DNA of 49,321 nucleotides from assembly GCA_017429525.1 (NCBI GenBank), contig JAFROT010000053.1:1-49321 (forward strand). The letters are read 5' to 3'. The notes beneath the pieces were generated by a model that saw only the letters and a program-made list of their open reading frames with translations, searched no databases and was not told the origin of the DNA. The position numbers and the translations under genes were made by a program. This document shows, piece by piece, positions 20,692-49,140 of the stretch. Positions within the stretch are counted from its first letter, which is position 1. Each line of letters opens with the position of its first letter. The DNA comes from Bacteroidaceae bacterium (GTDB lineage: Bacteria > Bacteroidota > Bacteroidia > Bacteroidales > Bacteroidaceae).

Positions 20692-21933
20692 ATGAATAAG
20701 ACAAAGCTCTGTGTTTCCTTATTATTATGGGGAATGGCAATGATGGCAAGCGCACAGACGTTTACCGTCAAAGTGAGCAATCCCACGACATTAAGCCGGA
20801 CGGACGTTCCCGTTGTCGTCGACCTGAAAAAGACGCTCGGCAAGAAGGTCCTTACCCTGCTGTCGGCCGAGGTATATGCCCCCCACTCCACTGAGAGGAG
20901 CCTGCCCGTGCCCAGCCAACTCGACGACCTCGACGGCGATCTCATCCCCGACGAACTGGCTTTCGTAGCCGACATGCCGTCGCACTCCTCACTCACCTTC
21001 ACGGTCAAGTGCTCTGCAGCACCATCGCAACGGCAATACCCCCCGCGAACGTCGGCTTTCATGAAGGTTTGGGACCGCAAGTACCGCTACCCCTACATCA
21101 ATTCAATTGAATATCAAGGGCGCAACGACCCATTGGCCACCTACGATGCCATCTACGGGCATGGCGCGCAATGGGAATCGGAACTCGTGGGCTTCCGCGT
21201 CTACATGGACCATCGACAAAGCATCGACATCTACGGCAAACCGACTCCGCAACTGGTGCTGGACCGCACGAATTTCTACTCTACGCGCGAGGATATCGCC
21301 GAGGGACGCGGCTGCGACATTCTGTTTGCCGGGCCCAGCGTAGGCGCAGGCTCCTTCCGTGGTTACGTGAAAGGGCAACCCACCTACGTCGACAATGTCG
21401 AAGCCCGCGGACAGCGCGTCATCGCCAGCGGCCCCGTGCGTGCCATCGTCGAAGTGACCGACAAGAACTGGCTCTACAACGGCAAGACGCTGCAGATGCG
21501 CCAGCGCTACATCATCTACGCAGGGCACCGCGATGTCGAAGTGAACATCGACCTTGCAGGTCTCGGCGTCAACGAAGAGACGTTCTGCACAGGCGTCCAG
21601 AAGCTGGAAATGGAGAACCAAGGCCTCATCACGCCCCGCAGCGGGCTTGTCGGTTCATGGGGCAAGAACGTCCCCGACAAAGCGGCTACAGACCTCGTCG
21701 AAGGTGTAGGACTGGGCGTGTATGTAGGCCCGAAATACCTCCGTTCCACCAAAGAGGACGACTACAACTACCTGACCATCCTGCAGCCCCGCGAGGGACA
21801 TATTCGTTACCATCTGGCCATCTGCGCGCTGATGGAGCAGAAAGGCTTCAAGGACGCCAAGGGCTGGTTCGACTGGCTCGACAAATGGAAGAAAGCACTC
21901 GACCGCCCCTGCACGATTCATGTGAAGCGGTAA
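20692..21933 (+). CDS. Secreted DUF4861 protein
   Basis: The 413-residue product has a signal peptide (about residues 1-22, MMASAQ). The rest is almost entirely beta-rich: VSNPTTLSRTDVPVVVDLKKTLG at the start, SQLDDLDGDLIPDELAFVADM, then long strands to the end. This is the DUF4861 family, which recurs in pectin and uronate loci of Bacteroidetes and is thought to act on, or bind, oligosaccharides; the activity is not established. It follows the PL26-like gene on the same strand and is followed by a terminator. Confidence 0.85.
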   Translation: MNKTKLCVSLLLWGMAMMASAQTFTVKVSNPTTLSRTDVPVVVDLKKTLGKKVLTLLSAEVYAPHSTERSLPVPSQLDDLDGDLIPDELAFVADMPSHSSLTFTVKCSAAPSQRQYPPRTSAFMKVWDRKYRYPYINSIEYQGRNDPLATYDAIYGHGAQWESELVGFRVYMDHRQSIDIYGKPTPQLVLDRTNFYSTREDIAEGRGCDILFAGPSVGAGSFRGYVKGQPTYVDNVEARGQRVIASGPVRAIVEVTDKNWLYNGKTLQMRQRYIIYAGHRDVEVNIDLAGLGVNEETFCTGVQKLEMENQGLITPRSGLVGSWGKNVPDKAATDLVEGVGLGVYVGPKYLRSTKEDDYNYLTILQPREGHIRYHLAICALMEQKGFKDAKGWFDWLDKWKKALDRPCTIHVKR

Positions 21934-21955
21934 GCCCACCTTTTTAATAAGCCCA

Positions 21956-21975
21956 CCTCTTTAAAAAGAGGTTTT
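21956..21975 (+). terminator. Rho-independent terminator of the PL26-DUF4861 pair
   Basis: CCTCTT pairs with AAGAGG and is followed by TTTT. The preceding 20 nt repeat AAGCCCACCT twice. Confidence 0.7.
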
Positions 21976-22318
21976 ACGCAAGAGATTTCTGACAACTTGC
22001 TGGACGACTTCTGCCTCGTTTTGCCGACATTTGTGGCATTTTCGAGGTACGAACTACACTTTTGCACCCTAAATTACACCCAAACTGCACCATTATTAAG
22101 ACGATTATCACATTGATAATCACACGAATGAGCATAAAAGAGTGCTAAAGTGTAGGTGCTCGCAAAACTTTTCTCGTGCGCATGCGCGCGCGGAAGAGCA
22201 CCGAGGCCGAGAACACGCCAAGGGGAGGAAGGAGGTCGGCCGACAGGACAACAGAGGAGAAAGCTCTATTCGTGCAGGGCAGGTTATCTGCAAGAATCTG
22301 AGATTTGACATAGAGAAC

Positions 22319-22348
22319 TTCGTTATTCGGTCGCGACCGAATAACGAA
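22319..22348. repeat. Perfect 30-bp palindrome
   Basis: The sequence is its own reverse complement over all 30 bases, centred on GGTCGCGACC. It shares CGGTCGCG with the 22-bp array at 34.6 kb and lies 33 nt before the related array here. Confidence 0.95.
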
Positions 22349-22381
22349 CACATATAGTCGTGCAGGGCTTAACGTCCGTAT

Positions 22382-22491
22382 GTGAAGGGCGTCACGAATG
22401 GACGCGAAGGGGCGAGCGAACAGACGCGAAGGGGCGAGCGAACGGACGCGAAGAGGCGAGCGAACGGACGTGAAGGGCGATGAGAACGGAC
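22382..22491. repeat. Tandem array A: five copies of a 22-bp unit
   Basis: Five contiguous 22-nt units cover 22382-22403, 22404-22425, 22426-22447, 22448-22469 and 22470-22491. The middle copies read GCGAAGGGGCGA then GCGAACGGAC. The two outer copies are more diverged. The shared core CGAACGGACGCG also marks the array at 34591-34848. The unit length is not a multiple of three and there are no spacers. Confidence 0.95.
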
Positions 22492-22642
22492 CGACGACGA
22501 ATGATGCACTCGGACCTGCTCGCTTGACCCTTCAAGAACTACGAACATGAACGACTGCCCATGGAGATGGGGAATGCGCTGACTATTCAGCCTATGATGA
22601 CCTCATGAGCTTTCAGGGAGCACCCCATAGGCCTTATAACCA

Positions 22643-22673
22643 AGAAAAAGGCTGCCCCGAAAGGAGCAGCCTT
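22643..22673 (-). terminator. Rho-independent terminator of the outer-membrane protein gene
   Basis: On the minus strand an 11-bp stem (AAGGCTGCTCC with GGGGCAGCCTT, one mismatch) and a TTTC loop run into TTTCTT. It lies 33 nt past the stop codon. Confidence 0.85.
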
Positions 22674-22705
22674 CAACGTATCTATGATTTTTCGAGAGAG
22701 AGCAA

Positions 22706-23215
22706 TCAGAAGCGATAGACGATGCCGAGAGCGAAGTGAGCGCGGTCGAAGTCGTTGACATACTGATAGACAGCCTCGAAGTTGGCAAAGATGCTTTCCG
22801 TGATATCATACTGCAGGCCGCCGCCGATGTTGAATCCGAAATGGCCATCGCGCTCTGTATCATAATCAGGGACAGCCACCTTCGTATGCACGAAAGTCAA
22901 ACCAGCGACAGGATATACGCTCAGGCCGTACTTCATCGGGATCACATAAGGATGAACGTTCAGGTTGACATCCCACACGGTGGTATAATCCTTCTTGATG
23001 AAATACTCATACGTGAACTCGGCGCGTGTGTGGCCCGTGAAGTAATACATCAACTTCGGCAGTTGGAAACCAAAGTCCGTAAAGCCACTGCCCGAACCCA
23101 TGGTGAGACCGAAACCTACGCCCCAGTCGCCGCCTTCGGCACTGTCATAGTAATCCTGAGCAAAAGCTCCCGTGCCCATCAGCGTCAGGCACAATGCAAG
23201 TAATAGTTTTTTCAT
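22706..23215 (-). CDS. Small outer-membrane beta-barrel protein
   Basis: The 169-residue product has a signal peptide (MKKLLLALCLTLMGTGAFAQ) and alternating amphipathic strands to the C-terminus. It ends in the aromatic outer-membrane signature FALGIVYRF. Examples of strands are GDWGVGFGLTMG, YYFTGHTRAEFTYEYFI and GFNIGGGLQYDITESIFANFEAVYQYV. Size suggests an eight-stranded OmpX/OmpA-like barrel. The ATG at 23215 is chosen over one four codons upstream because it begins the signal peptide. It is monocistronic, with a -7 element at 23259-23266. A specific role cannot be given. Confidence 0.85.
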   Translation of the reverse strand: MKKLLLALCLTLMGTGAFAQDYYDSAEGGDWGVGFGLTMGSGSGFTDFGFQLPKLMYYFTGHTRAEFTYEYFIKKDYTTVWDVNLNVHPYVIPMKYGLSVYPVAGLTFVHTKVAVPDYDTERDGHFGFNIGGGLQYDITESIFANFEAVYQYVNDFDRAHFALGIVYRF

Positions 23216-23258
23216 TTTACAGAACAATTTTAGGGTTAATAATTTGCCTTTCTGCGTG

Positions 23259-23266
23259 CAAATATA
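23259..23266 (-). promoter_or_regulatory. -7 element of the barrel protein gene
   Basis: The minus strand reads TATATTTG about 43 nt before the ATG. Confidence 0.45.
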
Positions 23267-23330
23267 ACGAATTATTCACCAACAAGCATAATTTAACGAA
23301 AATAATCACATCTTTTTCGACTTTTCTTTC

Positions 23331-23338
23331 TATTTTTG
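23331..23338 (+). promoter_or_regulatory. -7 element of the tat operon
   Basis: TATTTTTG lies 43 nt before the tatA ATG. A well-spaced TTG was not found. Confidence 0.45.
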
Positions 23339-23381
23339 CACCACAAATGAACCCAAAACATAAAAAAACCAGATTATCACT

Positions 23382-23567
23382 ATGAACTTAGGTACTCCTG
23401 AAATCCTGCTAATTGCTCTCGTCGTGCTGTTGCTCTTCGGAGGCAAAAAGATTCCTGAACTCATGAAAGGCCTTGGCAAGGGTGTCAAGAGCTTCAAAGA
23501 TGGCATGAAAGGCCTGGACGACGAGGTCAAGGACGCTACCACCTACGACAAGAACGAGGCGAAGTGA
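23382..23567 (+). CDS. tatA: Twin-arginine translocase subunit TatA
   Basis: The 61-residue protein has the TatA/E layout: a short hydrophobic helix ([22 protein letters not shown], about residues 5-26), the Phe-Gly hinge, then an amphipathic helix ([22 protein letters not shown]). TatA forms the pore-like assembly that lets folded proteins cross the inner membrane. Its stop overlaps the tatC start (TGATG). It heads an operon with tatC, a polytopic Fe-S protein with an internal twin-arginine segment, and a Tat-dependent aldo/keto reductase. No separate tatB is seen, as is common when one TatA serves both roles. Confidence 0.96.
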
Positions 23568-24370
23568 TGGAAGAGCAGATGACCTTCTGGGACCATCTCG
23601 ACGTGCTCCGGGGCAGCATCATACGCGTACTCGTATCGGCTGTTGTCATGGGGATCGGCGTCTTCTTCCTGAAGGACTGGCTCTTCGACATCGTCTTGTG
23701 GCCACGCGACAGCAATTTCCCCACTTACCGTCTGCTCGGAGCCGAACCTTTTCAGCTGCATCTGATCAACACCGAGCTGACTGAGCAGTTCATGATCCAC
23801 ATGAAAGTCTCGCTCATTTCGGGATTGCTGGTGGCTTCGCCCTACATCATCTACGTTTTGTTCCGCTTCATCTCGCCTGCTCTCTACGACAACGAACGGC
23901 GAGCCAGCTACCGACTCGTGGGAGCGGCTTATGGGATGTTCATGGTCGGCATCGTCGTGAACTACTTCCTCATCTTCCCGCTGACGGTGCGCTTCCTGGG
24001 CACATACAGCGTCAGTTCGGAGGTCGAGACGATGCTCACGCTATCCAGTTACGTCGACACGCTCTTGCTGATGAGCCTGGTTTTCGGCATCGTCTTCGAG
24101 ATACCTGTCATCGCCTGGCTGTTGGCGCGCTTCGGGATGCTCAAGCACACGTGGATGTCGATGTACAGGCGTCACGCCATTGTTGCCATCCTCGTTCTCG
24201 CCGCCATTATCACCCCGACGGCGGACATCATGACGCTCATCGTCGTCTCGCTACCCATCTGGCTGCTCTACGAACTGAGCATCTGGATTGTGCGCTTCAC
24301 CAACGCTAAAGAGCAGCAAGAAAGCGAAGAGACAGACGAACGGACCGAGGACACGGCGACGGCAACGTAA
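23567..24370 (+). CDS. tatC: Twin-arginine translocase subunit TatC
   Basis: The 267-residue protein is the polytopic Tat receptor that binds twin-arginine signals. It has the conserved N-terminal MTFWDHLDVLRGSIIR, six predicted membrane helices and ALYDNERRASYRLVG between helices 2 and 3. The C-terminal section holds AIITPTADIMTLIVVSLPIWLLYELSIW. The tail after the last helix is acidic (EQQESEETDERTED). The ATG at 23567 overlaps the tatA stop by one base; a GTG one codon earlier is possible. The next gene begins 154 nt later; that gap is C-rich and shows nothing else. Confidence 0.97.
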   Translation: MEEQMTFWDHLDVLRGSIIRVLVSAVVMGIGVFFLKDWLFDIVLWPRDSNFPTYRLLGAEPFQLHLINTELTEQFMIHMKVSLISGLLVASPYIIYVLFRFISPALYDNERRASYRLVGAAYGMFMVGIVVNYFLIFPLTVRFLGTYSVSSEVETMLTLSSYVDTLLLMSLVFGIVFEIPVIAWLLARFGMLKHTWMSMYRRHAIVAILVLAAIITPTADIMTLIVVSLPIWLLYELSIWIVRFTNAKEQQESEETDERTEDTATAT

Positions 24371-24524
24371 ACCGACAGCCCGACAGAGGCCTCAGTGCCC
24401 CCTGCCCCCGCTGAAGACGCTGAACCGATGGGCGATGCCGACTACAGCTACAATCAAGGGGCAACAAACGACGATTCAACACATTCAGAAATGTAACCAC
24501 AGACTCCATTCAAAACGACTTTTT

Positions 24525-26090
24525 ATGTTAAGAAGAATCCGCATCTGCCTTGCTACGCTTGTCTTCATTGGTATTACGCTCTTGTTCTTAGACGTCACGG
24601 GCGTGCTTCATTCCTACCTGGGCTGCCTGGCCAAGATCCAATTCCTGCCCGCCGTGCTGGCGCTAAACGTGGGCGTCATCATTGCGCTGCTGGCGCTGAC
24701 GTTGATTTTCGGGCGAATTTACTGCTCAATCATCTGTCCGCTGGGCATCCTCCAAGACTTGCTCGCGCGCCTGCGCCCGCGTAAGAATAAAAAGGTGGGG
24801 CGCTACAGCTACTCGCCCGAAATGAAGTGGCTGCGCTATCCTGTGCTCGCCGTTTTCATCGTGGCCATCATAGCTGGCATAGGCTCCTTCGTAGCCCTAC
24901 TGGCGCCCTACAGCAGCTTCGGGCGCATCATCACGAACCTGTTCCGCCCGCTCTATGAGCTCGCGAACAACGGGCTCGCCGCCATTGCCGAGCACTATGA
25001 GAGCTACGCTTTCTACAGCACGGAGGTATGGGTGCGCAGTCTGCCCACCTTCATCATCGCCGCCGCGACACTCATCGTGCTGGCTGTGCTCGCATGGGTA
25101 GGAGGCCGCACCTACTGCAATACCATCTGCCCCGTCGGCACCGTCCTCAGTTTCTTCTCCCGCTACTCGCTGCTGAAAATCAATTTCGACGAGGAGAAGT
25201 GCCGCAACTGCAGCGCCTGCACCAAGGCCTGCAAGGCTTCTTGCATTGACTTCAAGAACCATCAAGTCGACTACTCACGTTGCGTCGTCTGCGGCAACTG
25301 CTTGGAGAGTTGCAAGTTCGGGGCACTGAAATATGGGAAGGCCCTCGGCTCTCCCTCCGTCCTCCCGGTTAGTGAGGACGCGGCTACCTTTAAACGTGAG
25401 AGTCCTCAGCCTTCAGATAATTCTGCTCCCTCCCTTGGGAAGGCGGCGACGGAGCCTACTTCCCGCCGTGCTTTCCTCATTGGGGCAGGCATAGCCACCA
25501 CTACTGCTGTTTTAGCGCAAGAGAAGAAAGCGCTCAAGGTGGACGGCGGCTTAGCTGACATCGAAGACAAGATTGCCCCCGAGCGCCAGACGCCCATCAC
25601 GCCTCCAGGCTCTCTCTCGGCCAAGAACTTGGCCAGCCACTGCACAGGCTGCCAGCTCTGCGTAGCCCAATGTCCGAACGGCGTCCTGCGTCCGTCGACA
25701 GGACTGATGACGCTGATGCAACCCGTGATGAGCTATGAGCACGGCTACTGTCGTCCCGAGTGCAACCGCTGCTCGGAGGTCTGCCCTGCTGGTGCCATAC
25801 GCCCCATCACCACCGAAGAGAAATCCAGCACTCAGGTCGGTCATGCCGTATGGATCAAGAAGAACTGCCTCCCCGTCAGCGAAGGCGTAGATTGCGGCAA
25901 CTGCGAACGCCACTGCCCGACTGGAGCCATACAAATGGTGCCCCTCGACCCCGAAGACGAACTCGGCGCTTACGTCCCTGCCATCAACGAGGCCAAATGC
26001 ATCGGCTGCGGAGCCTGCGAGAACCTCTGCCCCGCCCGCCCGTTCTCGGCCATCTATGTCGAAGGGCACGAGGTACACAAGACGGTTTAA
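24525..26090 (+). CDS. NapH-like polytopic ferredoxin fused to a NapG-like domain through an internal Tat-like segment
   Basis: The 521-residue protein looks like two redox proteins joined. Residues 1 to about 210 hold several membrane helices with the CxxxCP motifs of NapH/NosR-type quinol oxidases (FGRIYCSIICPLGIL and GGRTYCNTICPVGTV). Two ferredoxin sites follow (CRNCSACTKACKASC and CVVCGNCLESC). A low-complexity linker then leads to SRRAFLIGAGIATTTAVLA (about residues 313-331), a twin-arginine-like segment in mid-protein. The C-terminal domain has at least four more Cys motifs (CTGCQLCVAQCPNG, CNRCSEVCPAG, CGNCERHCPTG, CIGCGACENLCPARP). It probably carries electrons from the quinone pool to the periplasm, with the Tat lipoprotein downstream as a candidate partner. 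The linker is encoded by G/C-rich repeat elements. Confidence 0.88.
   Translation: MLRRIRICLATLVFIGITLLFLDVTGVLHSYLGCLAKIQFLPAVLALNVGVIIALLALTLIFGRIYCSIICPLGILQDLLARLRPRKNKKVGRYSYSPEMKWLRYPVLAVFIVAIIAGIGSFVALLAPYSSFGRIITNLFRPLYELANNGLAAIAEHYESYAFYSTEVWVRSLPTFIIAAATLIVLAVLAWVGGRTYCNTICPVGTVLSFFSRYSLLKINFDEEKCRNCSACTKACKASCIDFKNHQVDYSRCVVCGNCLESCKFGALKYGKALGSPSVLPVSEDAATFKRESPQPSDNSAPSLGKAATEPTSRRAFLIGAGIATTTAVLAQEKKALKVDGGLADIEDKIAPERQTPITPPGSLSAKNLASHCTGCQLCVAQCPNGVLRPSTGLMTLMQPVMSYEHGYCRPECNRCSEVCPAGAIRPITTEEKSSTQVGHAVWIKKNCLPVSEGVDCGNCERHCPTGAIQMVPLDPEDELGAYVPAINEAKCIGCGACENLCPARPFSAIYVEGHEVHKTV
25345..25460 (+). repeat. G/C-rich repeat elements in the Fe-S protein linker
   Basis: Two sections (about 25350-25385 and 25424-25452) contain CTCCCTCC-type runs and short palindromes. 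GCTCCCTCCCTT at 25427-25438 also occurs at about 7120 in the anti-sigma gene, followed in both by a GGGAA..GGCGG section. They encode the Ser/Pro-rich linker before the internal twin-arginine segment. Confidence 0.6.
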
Positions 26091-26098
26091 AGGCCACG

Positions 26099-26150
26099 GG
26101 ATTTAAGGATTTAAAGGTTTAAGGATTTAAAGACTTGAGGGTTTAAAGGT
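26099..26150 (+). repeat. GGATTTAA(A)-type repeat between two Tat-related genes
   Basis: Imperfect 8-9 nt units (GGATTTAAA, GGTTTAA) fill most of the 78-nt spacer between the Fe-S protein and the aldo/keto reductase. Five to six units can be counted. Confidence 0.75.
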
Positions 26151-26168
26151 TATTAAGAATCAACTCGC

Positions 26169-27602
26169 ATGATGAATAAGGAAATTTCTCGCCGTAACTT
26201 CTTGAAATATCTGGCCGGCAGCACAGCAGCTGTAGCTCCCGCTGCTGCCTTCCTGGCCTCTTGCAAAGGAAAGGACGCGCAAAGTCAAGCCGACGGACTG
26301 TCGGAGATGACGATGCGCACCAACCCCAACACGGGTGATGTCGTTAGCCTGCTTGGCTACGGAATGATGCGTTTGCCACAGCTGCCAGAGGGCACGCCCG
26401 ATGACCCGAAGACGGGTCCCTTCGATCAGGAGATGATCAACCGACAGGTTGACTACGCCCTCGAACACGGAGTCAACTACTTCGATACGAGCCCTGTCTA
26501 CTGTCGCGGCCTCTCGGAGCGCTGCACGGGCATCGCCCTCAAGCGTCATCCGCGCGACAAGTACTTCATCGCTACCAAATTGTCGAACTTCGGCAGCGAG
26601 CAATGGAAGCTCGAAGCCTCGCAGGAGATGTTTGAGAACTCGCTGAAGGAACTGCAGACCGACTATATCGATTACCTTCTGCTCCACAGCACAGGCAACG
26701 GAGGACGTGATGCTGAAGGCAACGACCTCAGTGGCCTCGACGCCTGCAAAGCACGATTCATCGACAACGGGCTCATGGACTGGCTGGTCGAGCAGAAAGA
26801 GGCTGGCCGCATTCACAACCTCGGGTTCTCGTGGCATGGCGACTACCGCGCTTTCGAGTACCTGCTGCAGTTGCACGACGAGGGCCGCTATCACTGGGAT
26901 TTCGTACAGATTGAGTTGAACTACCTCGACTGGTTCTATGCCAACGAAATCAGCGACGGGAACATGGATGCCGTTACACTTTACGGCGAACTACACAAAC
27001 GCGGGATTCCTGCCGTCATCATGGAGCCGCTGCTTGGCGGACGCTTAGCGAACGTCAACGACGAAATTGCCGCAGAGCTCAAGCAGCGCGACCCCGAAGC
27101 CACCATCGCGTCCTGGGCCTTCCGCTTTGCCGGCACGCCCGAGGGCGTGCTTACCGTGCTGAGCGGTATGACGTTCATGGAGCATCTGCAAGAGAACGTG
27201 CGTACCTACTCACCGCTCCATCCGATCAGCGACGAGGAGCACGAGTTCCTGATGCATATCGCAGAAGAAATCTTCGGTCAGAAAGAAGTGCCTTGCACGG
27301 CTTGTCAGTACTGCATGCCTTGTCCCTATGGCATTGACATCCCCGCCAACTTTGCCCATTATAACCGTTGCATACGCGAGGGCAATACGCCTCAGAGTAG
27401 CGGCAGCCCTACCTACCGTAAGCAGCGCCGTGCCTTCCTCGTAGGCTACGACCGCAGCGTCCCACGCCTGCGCCAAGCCAGCCACTGCATCGGCTGTGGA
27501 CAATGCACCGTCCACTGTCCACAGCAGATTGACATTCCACGTGAACTGCGCCGAATTGATGAGTACGCTGAGAAATTGCGCCGCGAAGGAGGCCCCCTGT
27601 AA
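26169..27602 (+). CDS. Tat lipoprotein aldo/keto reductase with two ferredoxin clusters
   Basis: The 477-residue protein starts with a twin-arginine signal (ISRRNFLKYLAGS) that ends in a lipobox-like LASC (Cys32). It is therefore probably exported folded and then lipid-anchored. Residues 55-370 form the aldo/keto reductase barrel with the full catalytic tetrad: Asp106 and Tyr111 in YFDTSPVY, Lys137 in FIATKLS and His173 in YLLLHS. The C-terminal 110 residues carry two 4Fe-4S motifs (CTACQYCMPCPYG and CIGCGQCTVHCPQQ). This family is common in anaerobes, substrate unknown. It is fourth in the tatA-tatC operon, directly after the membrane Fe-S protein that could feed it electrons. ATG at 26172 is an equal alternative. 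Confidence 0.9.
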   Translation: MMNKEISRRNFLKYLAGSTAAVAPAAAFLASCKGKDAQSQADGLSEMTMRTNPNTGDVVSLLGYGMMRLPQLPEGTPDDPKTGPFDQEMINRQVDYALEHGVNYFDTSPVYCRGLSERCTGIALKRHPRDKYFIATKLSNFGSEQWKLEASQEMFENSLKELQTDYIDYLLLHSTGNGGRDAEGNDLSGLDACKARFIDNGLMDWLVEQKEAGRIHNLGFSWHGDYRAFEYLLQLHDEGRYHWDFVQIELNYLDWFYANEISDGNMDAVTLYGELHKRGIPAVIMEPLLGGRLANVNDEIAAELKQRDPEATIASWAFRFAGTPEGVLTVLSGMTFMEHLQENVRTYSPLHPISDEEHEFLMHIAEEIFGQKEVPCTACQYCMPCPYGIDIPANFAHYNRCIREGNTPQSSGSPTYRKQRRAFLVGYDRSVPRLRQASHCIGCGQCTVHCPQQIDIPRELRRIDEYAEKLRREGGPL

Positions 27603-27638
27603 GTCCTGAGATTGACACAGATAACTTAAAACGCGCAA

Positions 27639-28064
27639 ATGGAAGATCTTATACAGCAGCTCCACTCATCGCCTGCCATTCATGGCCTGGCGCGCTCTGC
27701 CGACGGGCAGATGCGCGAGTTTCATCGCAAAGGCGTCGTAGACCTCTACGACCTTATTACCGACGAGCCCTCGTTCCTCACGGGCGGCCAACTGGCTGAT
27801 CGCATCATCGGACGTGGGGCAGCCCTGTTGGCAGTCAAGGGAGGTGTCGCCAGCGTCCATGCCGACCTCATCAGCGAGCCTGCCCTTCAAGTGCTGACTG
27901 ATGCACAAGTGCCCCTGACCTACGATCGTCTGGTCCCGCATATCATCAACTGGACAGGCGACGGTATGTGTCTGGTCGAGGCCCTGACCTTGGATATCAA
28001 CGACCTTGACGAAGCCCATCGCCTCATAGGCGAGTTCCTTCAGCCCCGACGCGCTACGCTGTAG
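27639..28064 (+). CDS. DUF1893 protein
   Basis: The 141-residue product fits DUF1893 (TM1506-like), a small cytoplasmic domain with a deaminase-like fold but unknown activity. Visible features are SFLTGGQLADRIIGRGAALLAVKGGVASVHADLIS and a C-terminal LIGEFL. It starts 36 nt after the aldo/keto reductase and is probably the last gene of the tat operon. No signal peptide is present. Confidence 0.8.
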   Translation: MEDLIQQLHSSPAIHGLARSADGQMREFHRKGVVDLYDLITDEPSFLTGGQLADRIIGRGAALLAVKGGVASVHADLISEPALQVLTDAQVPLTYDRLVPHIINWTGDGMCLVEALTLDINDLDEAHRLIGEFLQPRRATL

Positions 28065-28104
28065 TCGGAGGCTATGCCAAGAAGAGAAGAATAGAATCTA
28101 CAAG

Positions 28105-28140
28105 CAGAGACACGGAGTTGAGAAATCCTCCGTGTCTCTG
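28105..28140 (+). terminator. Hairpin ending the tat operon
   Basis: A perfect 13-bp stem (28105-28117 with 28128-28140) has a 10-nt loop. The downstream tract is only weakly T-rich (TGTATTTA), so termination here may be partial; a second hairpin lies 90 nt on. Confidence 0.6.
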
Positions 28141-28233
28141 TGTATTTATGCCCTACATGTTCAAGGGTTGCAACAGCATTGAAGTCGAAGCTGCCTGAAA
28201 AAAACAGCTATTCAAAGCTAACTGATATACCTA

Positions 28234-28271
28234 AAAAAGCAGTTGACACCAGAACGTGCCAACTGCTTTTT
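28234..28271. terminator. Bidirectional terminator between tat operon and protease gene
   Basis: AAAAAGCAGTTG pairs perfectly with CAACTGCTTTTT. T tracts follow on both strands. It serves the protease gene (stop 17 nt away) on the minus strand and backs up the hairpin at 28105 on the plus strand. Confidence 0.85.
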
Positions 28272-28287
28272 CGAGTATGTAGGTCTC

Positions 28288-31200
28288 TTAACGAACCACT
28301 TTCTTGCCGCCTTGGATGTAGATGCCCTTCCTGACGGAAGTCTTAGCATTCACCTTACGACCACCGAGGTCGTAGATCGCATCCTTGTCAGCGCTATCAT
28401 CAGCCACCCCTCGAATGCCGACGGGATCAACGATGGACAGCTTACCGGAGATGTAGTTGAACTCATAGTTCTGAGCCTCAGCGCCTGAGACACGAATCTC
28501 GTAGACGCCAGCCGTGTTGGAATCCTTGGCATCACATTCAACGACGGGTTCCTTCAGCAGGACATCGGCTATCTTCTCGCGGTTACGGAGGCTGGAATAG
28601 GTGATTGCGAACTCAGGAAGAGTCTCTCCTACGTTAATCGTATAGGACTTAGCCGTGACATTAACGGGTGCAGGCTCAATTGTCAGGACTCCGTTCACGC
28701 AAACCAGTCCTTCGCTGGTAATCGTGCCAGCCTCAAGGACAATCGGATAATCGCCAACGGGAGAAGCAGCGTCAGTCTCTGCCGTGAGCGTAGGTTCGCC
28801 ATTGATAGGAGCACCCGTGACGGCATACGTGAACTTGCCGTTAGCACGACCATACTGGCGGCTCGAAGGCTCGCCCGTGATCGTAGGCACGCCCGTGTAC
28901 TCAAGAATGGTATATTCGCCCCAAACCTCATCGGCCTCGTAGGCAGCGATCATATTCTTTGGCACGAAGACGGTCAGGTTGCGCATGGGCAGACCTGCGT
29001 TCTCAGCCGTAACGACCTGCTTGTCATTGAGCAGCGCCAGGTACTTCAGGTTGGTGCAACCCGTAAAGGCGTGTTCGCCAACCTTGGTGATGCCGGCAGG
29101 CAGGATAGCCGAAACCATCGTCGAATTGGAGCGGAAGCCTTCAGCGGGAATCTCGGTCAGACCCGTGAAGTGACGCAAATCCTCGAGGCTCTTGAGGCCC
29201 GTGACGCCGCGCAGTGCCGCGCCAATGCTCTTGACCGCAGCTGCCTCTTCCTTGCTGAGTTCATCGTCCTCGTCGTTATCCCAGGTATTGACACATGCGG
29301 TCTTGGCACGGTTGTCGATGAAAACGATGTAGTCCAGCTTAGCACGCACGGAGAGGATGGCGTTGCTGATCTCGTCCTCGGTGCTATCGAAGTTATCATA
29401 GACGGCATGCTCGGCAGCGACGTCAAGATTCTTGTTGTCGGCCTTGACCAACAGCTTGCGCAGCTGCTCGGTCAGATCGTAGAACTCCTGTGCAGCCCTG
29501 GCTTCTTCTACGCTGATGAAGGCCCACTGGCAGGCTTCGGGATCTGAGTCGTAGTTGATGTCCCAATAGAGGCCACGCGTGGTATAATCAACATCGGTCT
29601 GATGAGAGTAGTCGGTACCGAGGTACTCACCTTCGACGTATGTAGCATCCTTGGCCGGGACCTGGAAGGTGTAGACATTCTCCTTACCCTCTACCGGCAC
29701 CACGTGCCAATAAGCAGCCGACGAGAGCGTGCCATCGACGAAGCAAGTCTTGACGCCCTTACCGACCTTGGAGTCTTCACTCGTGCGGAAGAGGACCTTG
29801 TTTTCCTTGCCCGTCTGGTCGGAGTAGAGGTAGTAGACATCCTTGGCCATCGTCGTGCTGCGACGGAGCTGATAGACGAGTCCAGCCTTGTCGACGACTG
29901 CCTGCGTACCATAAGCCTCGCCATGGTTGATTGAACGACGCATGCCCAGGTTGTAGACGTAGACATCCGTATTGGCAGCCAAGGGGACAAAGGTAGGCTG
30001 CTTCACCGCACGCATCTCGCGAATCTCGCCGAAGTTCTTCCATACGGAGGCATTGGCATACAACTCCTTCGAGCCCTGCGGCACGTAGAGCACTGCGTTG
30101 GCCACCTTCACGTTCGTGAAGATGCCAGTCCCCAGATCAATCAAAGCGGGATCGGCCACGGGAACGTAAAGTTCCTTGAGAGACGTACAGCCATAGAAAG
30201 CATTGTCGCCGATATACTCAAGATTAGAGGACAGATGAACGCTCTCCAACTTATTGCAATTGAGGAATGCACGATAGTAGATATTCACGACGCTGTTGGG
30301 CAGGGTGAGCTCGGTCAGCTTCTTATTATCCTTGAAGCCATTGCCTTCGATGGCCTGCACGTGAGTGAAGTAGACCAGCTCGGGGAAAGCCGTGATGGCG
30401 CTCTGCTCGGAGAACCAGGAGCCCAGTTCTGCGATGGCAGCAGCTTCGCTGATACTGACCTCATCGTTAAGGTCCATATCGTAGTGAGCGACGCAGATCT
30501 GGCGAACGGTCTCGTCCTCGAAATGGATGAAGTTCAGCTTCTTGCGCAGACGGCGGCAAGCCTTCTGAAGGTCTTCTTTCGTGCTGTTCAGGTTGGAGTA
30601 GACTTCCTGCTCGGTAGAGACATCAATGCGCTTGCTCTCGCCCAGGGCGATGAGGTTCTTCAGTTGGAGTGACTGGCCGTAGACCTCCGTCGGACCCTCT
30701 TCGTAGGGGACGAGCATCCATTGGCAGTTGAGCGCATAATCGTCATAGTTGATATCGCTGTAAGCGCCATAGGTGGGCGACGCGGCATTGCTGTCATGCG
30801 ACGGCTGAATGCCCAGGAAGTTGGTAGCGACGTAGCCCGATACGTTGCTGGGCGTCTGGAGCGTGTAGACGTTGTCCGTGCCCTCGACCAGAGCGACTTG
30901 CCAATAGGCCGAGCGGTCGGTCAGCTTGGACGAGGCGCCGTCGACGAAGCAAGCCTTGACACCCGAACCCACGCGGCCGTCGGTGCTCGTGCGGAAGAGG
31001 TAGTGGTTGGCATTGCCCGTGTCCTCGGAGTAGAGCGAATAAACGCCTTCCGTACTGGTCGAGCGGAACTCGAAGCGCATAGGCGATGCCGTGTTCGCTA
31101 CGACAGCCTGCGTATTGTAGGCCTCGCCACGAGTCAGGTAGTAGCCCGTCCCGACGTTATAAAGGTAGTAGGCTTTCTTCACTTCGAGCTTGTCGAACTG

Positions 31201-33033
31201 TCCGCGTGCGAGCGTGCGCTGCTCGTTGATGGTGCCGAAGTCGCGCCATTGAGCCGTCTGACGGAAGTAGTCGCCAGTGCCCTGCGACACATTCAGCGTT
31301 GCTGCGGTGAGGTCAGTGCCTTCGAATACGCTCGCGTCGAGTTTGATCTGCTGAGGCGTCACGCTCTTGACCGTCACGCTTGTGAGCTTAGAGCAGTCAG
31401 CGAAAGCCTTGCTGCCAATATGAGTGAGGCCCAGGGGCAGTTCGACTTCGGTGAAGGCGAGGCAGCCCTCGAACGTGTTAGCCTCGATCGACTTCAAGCC
31501 TTCGGGCAGGGTCAGCCCCGTCAAGTTGCGGCAGCCCTGGAACGCACCTTCGCCGATGGACGCCAGCTCATCGGGCAACTGCAAGGTCTTCAGGGCACGA
31601 CATTCGGCAAAGGCGTTGGCGCCGATATGCTTCAAGCCCTTCGGCAGTTTGACATTGTTCAGCTTAATGCAGCCCTCGAAGGCATGGTCATCGAGCTCCG
31701 TAAGGCCCGTGAAATAGTAGAGTTCGGGGAATGAGGTGAAGCCCTGCCCCTTGAAGGTATCGCCCAGCGACTTCACGGCTGCGACCTCGCCATAAGTGAG
31801 GACGCCATTGCCGTCGGCATCGAAGGCGGCCGTGCACAGTTTCTTGGCCGAGGAGTTAGCGATAGGAATAGCCTTCTCCATATAATTGGCCGGTTCGCAG
31901 CCGATGACAGCCTCTTGGCTGCCGCTGTAGCCGCCGTCCGAACCGCCGATGCCCTGCGAGCCGGGCTTCATCTTCGTGAGCAGGAAGTAGCCGTCGCTCG
32001 AGCCGCCCCAGCCCCAGTTGATATGGAAACATTGGTTGCCATCGTAGCCATCGCCCACGAAAGCGTGACCGCCCTCGCCATCATTACCGCTGAGGTAGAA
32101 CGGGCGACCCTCGGCCAGCTCTTTGTAGAGGAGCGCATCCCAGGCTTCGTCGGAGTAGTTGCCCTTGTAGGCATACTTGGCAGCTGAACCATAGCCGAAA
32201 TAGTTGTTGAGCGCATCGGGGACGTTGGACGAATAAGCGCCCGAGCTGCTGTTGGAATAGCCCATTTTCACAGACACGCCGCAGTACAGCATCAGATCGG
32301 CAACAGCTTTCTTCGACTTGGCCGAACTACTACTGCTGTAGGTGTCCGTCATATTGTCCCAGTCAATGAATGAACCTGCGGGGATGCCATTGACGGTCAT
32401 CGTGCCGTAGTTCTGGTCGGTAAGCGTATAGCTGGGCATGTCGGCCTGCGTCTCTGAGGGCGACTTGGCGCGCTGATAATAGAGGATCTGAGCCATAGCG
32501 GTGGCTACGCATCCCGTGACCGAGCGTCCCTGATGGAAGTAGTCGGGGCACGACTGGTTGTAGGGGTCGCCTTGGTTCCATTTCGTGGTCACCATCGGTG
32601 CGATGGCGGGATGGACAGGCGCTTTCGAGGGCGATGCGCTGGGCGTGCGCTGAATGTAATCGACATAGTCGGCATAGTCGTCGAGCCACTCGCGCATAGC
32701 ATCGGGGATGTTCTGATAGTCGAACTCGCCCGAATCGGTATAACCGAGGAAGGTGTCGAACTTATCGTCGCCAGCCACAATCACGTAGCCTTCGCTCGCA
32801 CCACGATTGAAGACGTAGTAGAGTTCCGTAGCCTCGGCCTTCTTGGTCTTGGTCCCGACGCGGCCTGGGGCGAGCTTCTTCTGGTTGGTGACAGGGGCCA
32901 GGCGGCGACTGCCGCTCTTGTTCTGCAGCCATTGCTCAGCTTTCTTCTGGGCTTCGCTGCGAGTGATAGGATCTGCGCTGACTGTCAGGGCAGCCATGAG
33001 GCAGAGCGCCATCAGTGCGAATCGTTTCGTCAT
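28288..33033 (-). CDS. Multidomain C10 (streptopain-like) cysteine protease with leucine-rich repeats
   Basis: The 1581-residue secreted protein has a signal peptide (1-20), a propeptide (about 21-135) and a C10 peptidase domain. Catalytic residues are Cys175 in RSVTGCVATAMAQ and His323 in GGHAFVGDG, with INWGWGG after it. Three modules follow. Each starts with an EF-hand-like acidic loop (first is FDADGNGVLTYGE at 403-415) and continues with leucine-rich repeats of the BspA type (HIGANAFAECRALKTL). The first two modules lead into a beta-rich section starting YLYN or YVYN. The C-terminus has an MBG-type repeat and a sorting-domain-like end (YDLGGRKV, KGIYIQGGKKVVR), which suggests type IX secretion. 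The ATG at 33033 begins the signal peptide. It is monocistronic and probably degrades or binds host or dietary proteins. Confidence 0.9.
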   Translation of the reverse strand: MTKRFALMALCLMAALTVSADPITRSEAQKKAEQWLQNKSGSRRLAPVTNQKKLAPGRVGTKTKKAEATELYYVFNRGASEGYVIVAGDDKFDTFLGYTDSGEFDYQNIPDAMREWLDDYADYVDYIQRTPSASPSKAPVHPAIAPMVTTKWNQGDPYNQSCPDYFHQGRSVTGCVATAMAQILYYQRAKSPSETQADMPSYTLTDQNYGTMTVNGIPAGSFIDWDNMTDTYSSSSSAKSKKAVADLMLYCGVSVKMGYSNSSSGAYSSNVPDALNNYFGYGSAAKYAYKGNYSDEAWDALLYKELAEGRPFYLSGNDGEGGHAFVGDGYDGNQCFHINWGWGGSSDGYFLLTKMKPGSQGIGGSDGGYSGSQEAVIGCEPANYMEKAIPIANSSAKKLCTAAFDADGNGVLTYGEVAAVKSLGDTFKGQGFTSFPELYYFTGLTELDDHAFEGCIKLNNVKLPKGLKHIGANAFAECRALKTLQLPDELASIGEGAFQGCRNLTGLTLPEGLKSIEANTFEGCLAFTEVELPLGLTHIGSKAFADCSKLTSVTVKSVTPQQIKLDASVFEGTDLTAATLNVSQGTGDYFRQTAQWRDFGTINEQRTLARGQFDKLEVKKAYYLYNVGTGYYLTRGEAYNTQAVVANTASPMRFEFRSTSTEGVYSLYSEDTGNANHYLFRTSTDGRVGSGVKACFVDGASSKLTDRSAYWQVALVEGTDNVYTLQTPSNVSGYVATNFLGIQPSHDSNAASPTYGAYSDINYDDYALNCQWMLVPYEEGPTEVYGQSLQLKNLIALGESKRIDVSTEQEVYSNLNSTKEDLQKACRRLRKKLNFIHFEDETVRQICVAHYDMDLNDEVSISEAAAIAELGSWFSEQSAITAFPELVYFTHVQAIEGNGFKDNKKLTELTLPNSVVNIYYRAFLNCNKLESVHLSSNLEYIGDNAFYGCTSLKELYVPVADPALIDLGTGIFTNVKVANAVLYVPQGSKELYANASVWKNFGEIREMRAVKQPTFVPLAANTDVYVYNLGMRRSINHGEAYGTQAVVDKAGLVYQLRRSTTMAKDVYYLYSDQTGKENKVLFRTSEDSKVGKGVKTCFVDGTLSSAAYWHVVPVEGKENVYTFQVPAKDATYVEGEYLGTDYSHQTDVDYTTRGLYWDINYDSDPEACQWAFISVEEARAAQEFYDLTEQLRKLLVKADNKNLDVAAEHAVYDNFDSTEDEISNAILSVRAKLDYIVFIDNRAKTACVNTWDNDEDDELSKEEAAAVKSIGAALRGVTGLKSLEDLRHFTGLTEIPAEGFRSNSTMVSAILPAGITKVGEHAFTGCTNLKYLALLNDKQVVTAENAGLPMRNLTVFVPKNMIAAYEADEVWGEYTILEYTGVPTITGEPSSRQYGRANGKFTYAVTGAPINGEPTLTAETDAASPVGDYPIVLEAGTITSEGLVCVNGVLTIEPAPVNVTAKSYTINVGETLPEFAITYSSLRNREKIADVLLKEPVVECDAKDSNTAGVYEIRVSGAEAQNYEFNYISGKLSIVDPVGIRGVADDSADKDAIYDLGGRKVNAKTSVRKGIYIQGGKKVVR

Positions 33034-33064
33034 ATTTATGATAGATTTAGTTAGTTTTGCGGTG

Positions 33065-33072
33065 CAAAGATA
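33065..33072 (-). promoter_or_regulatory. -7 element of the protease gene
   Basis: The minus strand reads TATCTTTG about 31 nt before the ATG. Confidence 0.5.
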
Positions 33073-33280
33073 CAAAAAATCGATGAATTACCGCCTATGA
33101 AAAGCCAACTATTTTCCACTTTCACCTTCATCTTAACATTCATAAGCAATCCTCGCTCCGTCCAGCTGTCATTTCGCTGATGAATAGTGGACCGCATGCG
33201 AGCACTCATGCGAGAGCCTAACAAAAGGTAAAAGATGCAAAAAAAAGCCTTCGCCGGGCCCTCCGTTCAAGGATTATGCT

Positions 33281-33288
33281 TACCTTTG
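33281..33288 (+). promoter_or_regulatory. -7 element adjoining a start codon
   Basis: TACCTTTG ends 4 nt before the ATG at 33293. This predicts a leaderless transcript. The -33 TTG is not evident. Confidence 0.6.
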
Positions 33289-33292
33289 CGCC

Positions 33293-33943
33293 ATGGTTGA
33301 GTATACCGCACATGAAGACCGCATCAACGCGTGGAGCCACGCGGCTGGCATAGCGCTCGGTGTCGTCGTAGGCATCATTTTCATCATCTGGTGCATACGC
33401 GCCGACGACGGCTGGGCCACGACGGCCGTCAGCCTCTATCTCGTCGGGATGCTCGCCAGCTACGTCACTTCGACCGTCTACCACGGCCTGCCCGCCCATT
33501 GGCCGTCACGTCAAGTGTGGCGGCGGTTTGACCATGCCGCCATCTACTGGCACATCGCAGGCTCCTACTCGCCCGTCACCCTCATCGCGATGCGCGACGC
33601 CGGCCTCTGGGGATGGGGGCTCTTCTGCTTCGTCTGGCTCGCCGCTATCGCAGGAACCGCCGTCAGTCTGGTCCGGCTGAGCGAGCATAGTTACCTCGAG
33701 ACGGCCTGCTTCGTCCTCATGGGCCTCTCGGTGCTGGTAGCCTTCGGGCCGCTCATGCAATGCGTCGAGCCCGTGGCCATCGGCTGGCTCATCGCCGAGG
33801 GCATTTGCTACGTCACGGGAGCCGTCGTCTACGCTTTCTCGCCCGGACGGCCCTACGTCCATTCCGTCTTCCACTTCTTTGTCCTGGCCGGTTCTGTGTG
33901 TCATATTCTTTGCGTCTGGCACGTACTTATGCAGTATCTCTGA
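33293..33943 (+). CDS. Hemolysin III / PAQR-family membrane protein
   Basis: The 216-residue protein has seven predicted membrane helices and the family's metal-site residues: ED near the N-terminus (HEDRINAWSHAAG), STVYHG in the second helix and HSVFHFFVLAGSVCHILCVWHV at the end. Members are related to eukaryotic progestin/adiponectin receptors and may act as membrane metal-dependent hydrolases; bacterial roles are unclear. It stands alone, divergent from the protease gene. The promoter is placed almost on the ATG. Confidence 0.93.
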   Translation: MVEYTAHEDRINAWSHAAGIALGVVVGIIFIIWCIRADDGWATTAVSLYLVGMLASYVTSTVYHGLPAHWPSRQVWRRFDHAAIYWHIAGSYSPVTLIAMRDAGLWGWGLFCFVWLAAIAGTAVSLVRLSEHSYLETACFVLMGLSVLVAFGPLMQCVEPVAIGWLIAEGICYVTGAVVYAFSPGRPYVHSVFHFFVLAGSVCHILCVWHVLMQYL

Positions 33944-34019
33944 GCCGCCCCAATAGCCCGAAAACGATTCATTTTGAAATTTTTTCGCCATTTTTTGATG
34001 GCGGAATGAATATTCTTTG

Positions 34020-34027
34020 TATATTTG
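34020..34027 (+). promoter_or_regulatory. -7 element of the DUF4332 gene
   Basis: TATATTTG is preceded by TTTG at 33994-33997 with a 22-nt gap, one base longer than the usual range. The leader to the ATG is about 85 nt. Confidence 0.55.
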
Positions 34028-34115
34028 CGCAGGATTAAGCGGATTTAGGCCGCTCAGACGCCCAAAGAGACCGCCACAAACAACCTTATTCACTAACCCT
34101 TATAAACAAACAACT

Positions 34116-34523
34116 ATGGCTTACAAGATTATTGACATCGAAGGCGTAGGCGAAGTCTACGCTGAGAAACTGATTGCCGCTGGTATCATCAAGGTCAGCG
34201 ACCTGCTCGTGAAGTGCGCTACGCCCAAGGGCCGCGCTGCCCTCGCCGAGGAGACGGGCATTAGCGACAAGCTCATCCTGCGTTGGACCAACCACGCCGA
34301 CCTGTTCCGCATCAAGGGCGTAGGTCCCCAGTTCTCTGAGCTGCTCGAAGCTGCCGGCGTCGACACCGTTAAGGAGTTCCGTCACCGCGTTCCCGAGAAC
34401 CTCCAGCCCAAGCTCGAGGAGACGAACGCCGAGAAGCACCTCGTACGTCGCGTGCCTTCGCTGAAGGAGGTCATCAAGATGGTAGAGCAAGCTAAGCAGC
34501 TCGAACCCGTCGTCACCTACTAA
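34116..34523 (+). CDS. DUF4332 helix-hairpin-helix protein
   Basis: The 135-residue product has two helix-hairpin-helix-like motifs (IEGVGEVYAEKLIAAGI and IKGVGPQFSELLEAAGV) separated by about 60 residues. This is the DUF4332 pattern. Such motifs bind DNA backbones without sequence preference in other proteins. MAYKIIDIEGVGE is the family start; the longer frame upstream lacks similarity. It is cytoplasmic and monocistronic. A 22-bp tandem array begins 67 nt after its stop codon. Confidence 0.88.
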   Translation: MAYKIIDIEGVGEVYAEKLIAAGIIKVSDLLVKCATPKGRAALAEETGISDKLILRWTNHADLFRIKGVGPQFSELLEAAGVDTVKEFRHRVPENLQPKLEETNAEKHLVRRVPSLKEVIKMVEQAKQLEPVVTY

Positions 34524-34590
34524 GCAACAACGCATTTGTTGGCCAACACCTGCTGAATGCAGGCTCGGTTTTGAGACGAGCAAGTTCAAG

Positions 34591-34848
34591 CGAACGGTCG
34601 CGTGAGCCTTAACGAATGGTCGCGCAAGACTTAGCGAATGGTCGCGCAGGCTTTAACGAACGGTCGCGTGAGCCTTAACGAACGGTCGCGCAGGCCTTAA
34701 CGAACGGACGCGTGAGCCTTAACGAACGGTCGCGTGAGCCTTAACGAACGGTCGCGTGAGCCTTAACGAACGGTCGCGTGAGCCTTAACGAACGGTCGCG
34801 CAAGACTTAGCGAATGGTCGCGTAAGCCTTAACGAACGGACGTGAAAG
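34591..34848. repeat. Tandem array B: eleven copies and a partial of a 22-bp unit
   Basis: Eleven contiguous units run from 34591 to 34832 at an exact 22-nt period, then a partial copy to 34848. The commonest unit reads CGAACGGTCGCG followed by TGAGCCTTAA. Variants have CGAATGG, CGGACGCG or GCAAGACTTAG endings. The final partial copy begins CGAACGGACGTGAA, identical to the sequence at the end of array A (22461-22474). Confidence 0.97.
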
Positions 34849-34875
34849 TGCCCCCATTCCCGACTTTCGCCTCAA

Positions 34876-34953
34876 ACGTATCAATCTTCAGGCCTTAAGG
34901 TTGAAATCTTCAACGCATAGGATTTTGACCTTAAGGCCTGAAGATTTATACGT
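34876..34953. repeat. Long inverted repeat after array B
   Basis: Arms of 26 nt (34876-34901 and 34928-34953) match as reverse complements with one mismatch. Pairing can extend inward about 10 bp more with two mismatches, leaving a short loop. It has no T tract and could act as a bidirectional transcription barrier or REP-like element. Confidence 0.9.
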
Positions 34954-35372
34954 GCAGACGGGGGCGTTCGCCGGTACGCCCCTCATCCGATTTTTCAGGA
35001 TTCCCGTTCGTTCGCTTTTACAATTTCTGCCGAATGGACGCTGGCGGAGGAGGACGCGGAGGGGCTGCAGTGCCTCCTCGTTTTTTTGCGGAAAAAAGAC
35101 TTCAAAAAAACAGCTCAAAAAAAAGCAAGTTTCAAGAAAAAAAGAGAAAAGAAGCAAAAGAGAATAAAAAGAAACCTACTACTGCAGCTGTTAACGCGCG
35201 CGAGGGAAAAATTGGCCATCGTCATGCCCATGCCCTAGCGTTTGGCGACAGCCGTAACCGCCCTCAAAGGCGCGAGAGCATCTCGTCTCTTTCGACGCGA
35301 TTCTACCGCGTCGCCTCCCCACAAGCGCGCCCTGCGCTTTCCCTCAAGCAGCCAGCCCATCACCGAGCCGCC

Positions 35373-48867: not shown

Positions 48868-49090
48868 GCTATTTCTGCGCATTAAACGCATGAAATACGT
48901 ATCAATTTTGAACAAATATAAGTCAAAAACAAAAGATGGAGGAATTATTTCACTCATCAGCCCGTAATAAAGTAGTAATAACCTCTCGAGAAATCGAAAT
49001 ATCGGAATAACGACATTCCGAAATCCCGGAACGGCTCACCCTCACCTCAATCCTTTCCTCTCCCCTCACTCCGGCACACAGGCACGGAGA

Positions 49091-49140
49091 CGAAAACGAT
49101 AACGATAACGAAAACGATAACGAAAACGGAGACGAAGGCG
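49091..49140. repeat. Hexamer-type repeat near the rRNA operon
   Basis: Units ACGAAA, ACGATA and then GGAGAC/GAGACG-like repeat in tandem. The 23 nt at 49106-49128 are the exact reverse complement of 12237-12259 in the metY leader. Confidence 0.85.

Follow-up and report, generated by a model that had tools for sequence, protein, structure and literature searches.

The window, the whole stretch of 49,321 nt analysed here, carries two tandem arrays of 22-nt units, A and B. Each of them lies between two convergent genes, as an earlier note had read from the sequence and as our gene calls bear out; the calls come from a custom codon-usage script and not from curated annotation. TRF reports array A with period 22 at 22395-22491 (4.4 copies, 5% indels) and array B with period 22 at 34591-34839 (11.3 copies, 0% indels). 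The note had placed array A at 22382-22491; the array is real there, but its phased extent covers the six units given in Table 1, and the partial copy of the unit after 22482 is broken. Along the arrays recurs a box of about 10 bp with the dyad-symmetric consensus CRWMYRKWYG, 22 bp centre to centre.

The period and the core that the note described as common to A and B are upheld by TRF, by core counts and by a survey of the genome that holds the window. Specifically, CGAACGGACGYG with at most 2 mismatches matches 35 times in the window against 10.5 expected, a count that 0 of 100 shuffles reach, and a two-unit pattern (at most 2 mismatches) matches 107 times in this genome (3.30 Mb, 56 contigs), while the reversed-pattern control gives 0. 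As the note also held, the second ten bases of the unit are unlike, reading AAGGGGCGAG in array A and TGAGCCTTAA in array B. Both unit halves recur and drift, which does not agree with the near-identical repeats and unique spacers of a CRISPR array. For A and B a plasmid iteron origin does not agree with the neighbours either, as no Rep gene stands beside A (DUF4861, OMP) or B (DUF4332, AraC). Elsewhere in the window lie a 1595-aa ORF (28288-33075, minus strand) with C10 peptidase, Spi inhibitor, leucine-rich repeat and MBG domains, and two other short tandem repeats, GGACAAT x8.4 (6644-6702) and ACGAAA x7.8 (49090-49136).

Table 1 Features around arrays A and B (positions in the window; stretches and loci carry L handles, genomes G handles)
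Feature	Positions	Strand	Remarks
DUF4861 protein gene	20692-21933	+	Left neighbour of A; start called by the script 20740
Stretch absent from the orthologous G106 gap	21934-22640	.	~700 bp, limits approximate
Leader of the class-I element	22019-22190	+	82% identical to the leader query; alignment
Leader inverted repeat, CTACACTTTTGCAC / AGTGCTAAAGTGTAG	22054-22067 / 22141-22155		
Perfect 24-bp palindrome GTTATTCGGTCGCGACCGAATAAC, class I	22322-22345	.	Upstream of array A, in register
Array A	22351-22482	+	Six 22-nt units, diverged units scored; TRF and position matrix
Terminator-like hairpin of the converging OMP gene	22647-22674	-	Outside the element; counterpart kept in G106
Outer-membrane beta-barrel protein (OMP) gene	22706-23227	-	Right neighbour of A
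DUF4332 protein gene	34017-34523	+	Left neighbour of B; start called by the script 34116
Array B	34591-34854	+	Twelve 22-nt units; TRF and position matrix
Diverged unit, in register	34855-34876	+	Between array B and its hairpin; counterpart in G106
76-nt hairpin of array B	34877-34952	.	Inverted pair of units on the 22-nt grid of array B
AraC-type regulator gene	35373-36275	-	Right neighbour of B

Leader, palindrome and array, and the same sites in relatives

Array A forms the right-hand portion of an intergenic element that is dispersed in the genome and consists of a leader, a 24-bp palindrome and the 22-nt array. The palindrome at 22322-22345 folds as DNA with -8.2 kcal/mol (z -4.9), and 22 bp separate its centre from that of the first box in the array. 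With up to 3 mismatches this class-I palindrome occurs in 33 copies in the genome (reversed-pattern control 0), as a dispersed short extragenic palindrome in the sense used for REP/BIME sequences, and the copies are one family rather than 33 independent events. A leader of ~340 nt to the left of the palindrome is common to 17 of the 33 copies, three of which are cut by a contig end. A leader probe gives 24 matches in the genome, some without the palindrome, and the inverted repeat of the leader, CTACACTTT(A/T)GCAC / GTGCTAAAGTGTAG, is also found alone elsewhere. A second, unrelated leader is common to L067 and L070 of this genome, L126 (G011) and L131 (G035); with two unrelated leaders joined to it, the palindrome-array part is therefore modular. 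No long ORF is common to the copies, by which an upstream gene ending at the palindrome was rejected.

The leader hairpin with CTACACTTTAGCAC ends also occurs alone, as an element of roughly 110 bp (L060, L116). Inverted pairs of it, at L060 7637-7740 and 10185-10295 and at L116 4808-4912 and 7400-7505, enclose a 748-aa ORF, and an array plus a 414-aa ORF. These segments resembled an autonomous element, but no transposase was recognised in their ORF lists. Similar small proteins starting MEKK(T/K)YSKP..ERFEPQEY adjoin two arrays (L062, upstream of 1414; L116, 5218-5658 and 8189-8665). Additionally, a 263-nt stretch that is 91% identical between L075 (7639-7899) and L082 (7636-7898) holds the end of an ORF of unclear kind, followed by an array. 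Window positions 21990-22500 gave no plasmid or phage match at the distant setting, and the exact palindrome pattern gave none in viral_contigs; a mobile origin stays compatible with both results.

At site A, the positions of G106 (contig C224) that align to 21932 and 22648 of the window are just 20 nt apart. The DUF4861 genes of the two genomes are 85-86% identical, and G106 has a terminator hairpin ~20 nt past the DUF4861 stop and lacks the element. The element is absent from the A site of G010 and G011 too. Most simply, it would be a gain in the lineage of this genome, the alternative being a loss in three lineages. Any target-site duplication has just the ~20 nt of diverged G106 spacer for comparison. 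The absence from the three relatives, together with the dispersed class-I copies, supports the part of the note that spoke of a replicating element.

At site B, the anchor is present in G106 too, as is a 76-nt hairpin that follows the same grid. In this genome the boxes of the hairpin start at 34877, 34899, 34921 and 34943, and its DNA fold has a z of -11.0. Anchor and hairpin lie 302 nt apart in this genome and 60 nt apart in G106, a difference of exactly 11 x 22. The two hairpins differ at 27 of 76 bases with no indel; nine of the 38 pairs have changed on both sides and are still paired, and four are paired in one genome only. Nine double compensatory changes compare with a null mean of 2.0 and a maximum of 6 in 2000 shuffles; hairpin-templated repair could likewise yield them. 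L122 and its copy in G017 share 94.5% identity over 1786 nt, with no indel in the array. In one G106 contig (L133, G106:C203) the flank left of L115 and the flank right of L080 meet inside the element, by recombination between copies or by misassembly at the repeat.

Register, placement and dyads

A position matrix trained on the units gave 60 chains with 305 units, against 1 chain in control sequences; the stretches of this genome were mostly picked for containing arrays or palindromes, with one further set picked by place. In the unfiltered chains 243 of 245 steps equal 22 nt, one is 21 and one 23. A filter for at least 3 units and a score over 35 drops 7 of the 60 chains, including the two low-score 2-unit chains that hold the steps of 21 and 23, and leaves 53 arrays with 290 units, in which 237 of 237 steps are 22 nt. 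Neighbouring units in these steps show 1608 base differences in total, or 6.8 of 22 bases per unit (31%).

Since the chaining permitted steps of 21-23 only, boxes around the 33 palindromes were counted unchained as well. To the right, 172 boxes lie in register and 12 are spread over the other 21 phases, with 0 at +/-1; to the left, 19 are in register and 5 elsewhere. Of the distances from one box to another, 197 equal 22 nt and 15 equal 44 nt; a further 12 take other values of at most 60 nt. At +22, +44, +66 and +88 from the palindrome centre a box is present in 32, 30, 32 and 30 of the 33 copies (0.97, 0.91, 0.97 and 0.91).

Gaps were counted in the 17 leader-sharing copies, with the three contig-end cuts and L076 removed for arrays of unequal length, and with L115, which has an extra piece of roughly 22 nt in its leader, also left out for equal stretches (12 copies). 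On equal stretches the gap events per mismatch are 0.009 in the phased part and 0.048 in the unphased leader at gap-open -7 (66 pairs), and 0.032 and 0.075 at gap-open -5, at similar identity (leader 0.78, phased part 0.75). Arrays of unequal length in free gapped alignment give 0.065-0.069, against 0.083 for the leader. Gaps thus persist even on equal stretches and occur in unequal arrays, so the depletion of indels rests on the register counts.

The letters are looser than the spacing. The first 12 positions of the unit carry 0.75-1.66 bits and the last ten 0.24-0.95 bits, so that the core is better conserved, though not invariant; the constant features are the 22-nt register and the dyad centres. 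CGAACGGACGTGAA is indeed present at 22461 and 34833, in the end copies that the note took to be shared, but this looks like coincidence: only two of the 53 arrays, A and B, have it as their final unit, and it also turns up in 10 of the 237 units that are not last, by which a constant edge motif was rejected.

Nearly all arrays (52 of 53) are outside called genes, the exception being a three-unit chain in L113. Among the 47 arrays with a called gene on both sides, a count that leaves out 6 of the 53, 21 are convergent, 16 tandem and 10 divergent, against 28 convergent, 152 tandem and 48 divergent of 228 array-free gaps of at least 100 nt in the same stretches. Convergent gaps are enriched for arrays (Fisher p = 1.6e-6). 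With 26 of 47 arrays not convergent, the placement is therefore an enrichment, and the rule that such arrays always lie between convergent genes was rejected. An all-against-all comparison of the 94 flanking proteins linked at most about four arrays in one group, and no shared neighbour gene was found.

Taken as a whole, the view of the earlier note, in which selection acts on the core letters and a replicating element has a fixed edge between convergent genes, draws on the better conserved first 12 positions and the convergent enrichment; the edge and placement counts make it very improbable in that form. What stands of it is one family formed by A and B, for which the sequence does point to a spreading element under constraint, without the fixed edge.

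The enrichment in convergent gaps also fits an action at the RNA level, in which hairpins transcribed at gene 3' ends serve as bidirectional terminators or transcript stabilisers and the array is a spacer. The compensatory changes of the B hairpin fit as well, and the RNA fold of its region has a z of -3.6, which none of 100 shuffles equals. On the minus strand, the palindrome of A is listed as a terminator-like match with a weak tail, in a region with 2 such matches against 0.8 expected. However, the B hairpin is absent from the terminator-like matches (2 found there, 1.9 expected), and the terminator of the OMP gene lies outside element A. Box orientation shows no bias relative to tandem genes (8 same, 8 opposite), and ten of the 47 arrays are between divergent genes. 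As RNA, the palindrome with array A reaches a z of -1.6, and 12 of 200 shuffles fold equally well. Rfam gave no match at gathering score for six loci, and sub-threshold generic hairpins only in window positions 21800-35400. We regard an RNA-level role as unlikely.

A search for 24-bp dyads near the arrays, made de novo with no sequence model, placed 36 of 40 in register. They comprise 29 of class I, 5 of class II (GGTGGATCACC(A/T)TGGTGGTCCACC) and 2 of class V (AGTTTTCCAA..TTGGAAAACC), which are three unrelated sequences. The other four are off register: the B hairpin and L123 stand at half register, and two more are odd-centred. In the reverse test, which starts from every 24-bp dyad (at least 11/12) in 1.12 Mb, the 24 class-I dyads have 118 boxes in register and 7 out, the 3 class-V dyads, all in stretches picked by place, have 9 in and 1 out, and 6 other palindromes have 0 in and 2 out.

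Covariation of the dyads within units is weak, with excess mutual information at the inner two of the five pairs that is no higher than at some neighbouring positions. In the palindrome alignment just two pairs have changed on both sides, a number that 304 of 500 shuffles reach; by contrast, 7 of 500 shuffles match the covariation score and the pairing. At the palindrome pair that varies most, four distinct rows show G-T and four more lack a standard pair (A-C), with no strand preference, which speaks for DNA rather than RNA as the level of action.

Mutation bias is a further candidate: hairpin-templated repair (quasi-palindrome correction) would give double changes without selection, and hairpin slippage would set the step. 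Such a process would yield compensatory pairs and several palindrome sequences with no partner protein. It leaves unexplained why palindromes that differ in sequence keep phase with imperfect boxes as far as 110 nt off, and we hold it to be rather improbable.

The period in the genus

A lag scan from 10 to 45, again with no sequence model, was run on nine genomes of the genus. Lag 22 or 44 accounts for 15 of 36 tandem loci in 400 kb of this genome picked by place, for 23 of 39 in G011 and for 59 of 139 pooled over the nine genomes, where it is the commonest period. Lag 14 is commoner than 22/44 in G099 and G017, and 22/44 arrays are few in G099 (2 in 200 kb) and G133 (1 in 140 kb). The stretches of G011, G106, G130, G017, G133 and G088 were partly picked around earlier matches, and those of G099 and G015 are contig starts. 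Unit sequences vary by locus and species, as in the CTCTATAGAG, GACCGGTC and CCAACCTAAT blocks of G011. Two compound arrays of G011 (L216 3902-4253 and L202 7948-8190) contain three blocks of unrelated 22-nt units, whose order is the same when the two arrays are read on opposite strands; on visual inspection, two of these blocks have a common dyad phase.

The pooled dyad score of period-22 consensus units is 4.19, against 3.58 in shuffles (sd 0.08; 0/300). For other periods it is slightly raised, at 3.45 against 3.24 (sd 0.09; 8/300). Tests on single arrays are weak (1/15, 10/54, 3/23 and 1/2 at p<=0.05), and the pooled test is clear. The core with at most 1 mismatch occurs in 8 of 139 genus genomes, this one included, with 3 matches of the reversed control, all in G099. 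The palindrome with at most 3 mismatches occurs in 16 of 139, with 0 for the control among the matches listed. Of 19 stretches found in a search of named genomes, Bacteroidales-type MAGs account for 7; the 12 from other groups are taken as chance.

A reading of the arrays and known repeat systems

The data demonstrate dispersal, an exact register, palindromes in that register, presence and absence at site A, and, at site B, the 11-unit difference and the compensatory changes of the hairpin. The explanation that we favour, at a probability of about one half (0.48), is that the arrays are dispersed non-coding elements which are constrained as DNA, as dyad sites every two helical turns, and which have spread non-autonomously. 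Arrays A and B would then be members of a large intergenic family of dyad boxes, often with a longer palindrome or inverted units on the grid. A would be a leader-palindrome-array copy gained between DUF4861 and OMP, and B an older array-plus-hairpin whose length changes by whole units. The copies may have spread by means of a transposase from elsewhere or by recombination between copies.

The strict phase, the loose letters and the equal strands favour an action on duplex DNA, and such base tolerance within a strict 22-bp phase would not suit one sequence-specific signal. The elements might provide phased sites for a dimeric, oligomerising protein, with a dimer or filament at intervals of two turns, or might extrude as in-phase hairpins. 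Neither a binding protein nor a transposase for the elements was found, and the variation of box sequences between arrays and species, which is hard to reconcile with one sequence-specific protein, counts against our reading. A bolder version, which we offer tentatively and consider doubtful, is a genus-wide phased-dyad scaffold, kept by a genus of uncultured Bacteroidales in many intergenic arrays, in which dyad symmetry and the exact 22-bp register are kept while the letters turn over; it might be read by shape or by an oligomerising protein, and might organise gene ends or serve a mobile element. If the register is selected, the arrays would be the footprint of an unknown nucleoprotein or mobile-element machine that is detectable by its spacing alone.

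Among known systems, iteron arrays and the end sites of TnsB and MuA consist of protein sites spaced about 22 bp apart, and an inverted repeat of the iteron core can serve as a Rep operator. In contrast, the present arrays occur by the dozen in one genome, and neither Rep nor transposase genes adjoin A or B.

Short dispersed extragenic palindromes that form clusters, with GTAG at some ends, recall the GTAG- and CGTC-tagged palindromes of REP/BIME sequences, of which the CGTC type is reported in Bacteroidetes in the accessible part of the source (PMC3733652). An origin of this kind would have GTAG-tagged palindromes multiplied by a Y1 transposase and the array grown from palindromes. In this genome 5 of 66 palindrome ends directly adjoin GTAG (4 of 33 palindromes: L111, L120, L121, L122); in relatives, 4 of 30 ends do so (3 of 15 palindromes). 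The expectation is 1 in 256 per end, so REP ancestry of some copies is possible. The GTAG copies (L111, L120, L121, L122, L125, L128, L130) are mostly arrays with TATATACG-type units. The genome also holds one weak Y1-transposase match, an ORF at L075 7959-9080 (minus strand), 66 bp from an array (7805-7892). Against this, the match is at the family cut-off and no class-I palindrome was found in its stretch, 29 of 33 palindromes are without GTAG, and CGTC is at none of the 66 ends here or the 30 in relatives; commonest at the ends in this genome are CTTC (17), GTTC (11) and ATTC (8). With most copies untagged and the palindromes tied to a 22-nt box grid, a REP/BIME-like origin of the family appears distinctly improbable.

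PINSR of Prevotella intermedia and nigrescens, a 188-bp intergenic repeat said to have some part in rearrangement, resembles the family in being intergenic, high in copy number and lineage-restricted; compared by description, as far as the accessible part of the source goes, it is one 188-bp repeat with no 22-nt grid described (PMC4755523). The literature, with subscription journals thinly covered, gave no report of 22-nt arrays with in-register palindromes. Tandem direct repeats of 22, 23 and 41 nt are mentioned for P. gingivalis W83, their exact locations not being identified in the accessible text (PMC4596501), and the first of these is, by description, likewise a 22-nt tandem repeat in a Bacteroidales genome.

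Closest in architecture is BrickBuilt, a MITE of Porphyromonas gingivalis with a 23-nt minisatellite and 19 dispersed copies in ATCC 33277. According to the accessible part of its description, it is intergenic, consists of leader, tandem units and tail, has one unit half more variable than the other, and changes by whole units between strains (PMC4596501). The leader-array layout, the dispersal, the intergenic placement and the whole-unit length change are shared with the present family. They fit our strongest rival, an ordinary minisatellite in a MITE-like element, in which the register has no function and slippage and whole-element copying hold the period at 22. Likeness between units fits as well: across loci, unit 1 is closer to unit 1 (0.59) than to units 3-4 (0.47), and within loci units 3 and 4 agree at 0.70, a pattern of copied order and local homogenisation.

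A function-free minisatellite does not sit well with neighbouring units that differ by 31% without a change of length while the leader of the same copies gathers indels, or with a period that is kept by other unit sequences in other species. We judge it possible and somewhat doubtful, and prefer dyad sites constrained as DNA because a minisatellite fails to predict unrelated palindromes on one grid and exact steps at that divergence. BrickBuilt itself also differs: its period is 23, against 22 here (237/237 steps; 243/245 unfiltered), and it has an IS5-like terminal repeat, GAGACCWTTGCA, which with at most 1 mismatch occurs 0 times within 600 nt of the 33 palindromes and 0 times in the window; a search by eye for any other terminal inverted repeat of the whole element found none. 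An in-register palindrome and a genus-wide period, which do not appear in the accessible BrickBuilt description (PMC4596501), are present here. The 11-unit length difference and the unrelated palindromes on one grid make it directly testable whether bacterial minisatellites are mere slippage junk.
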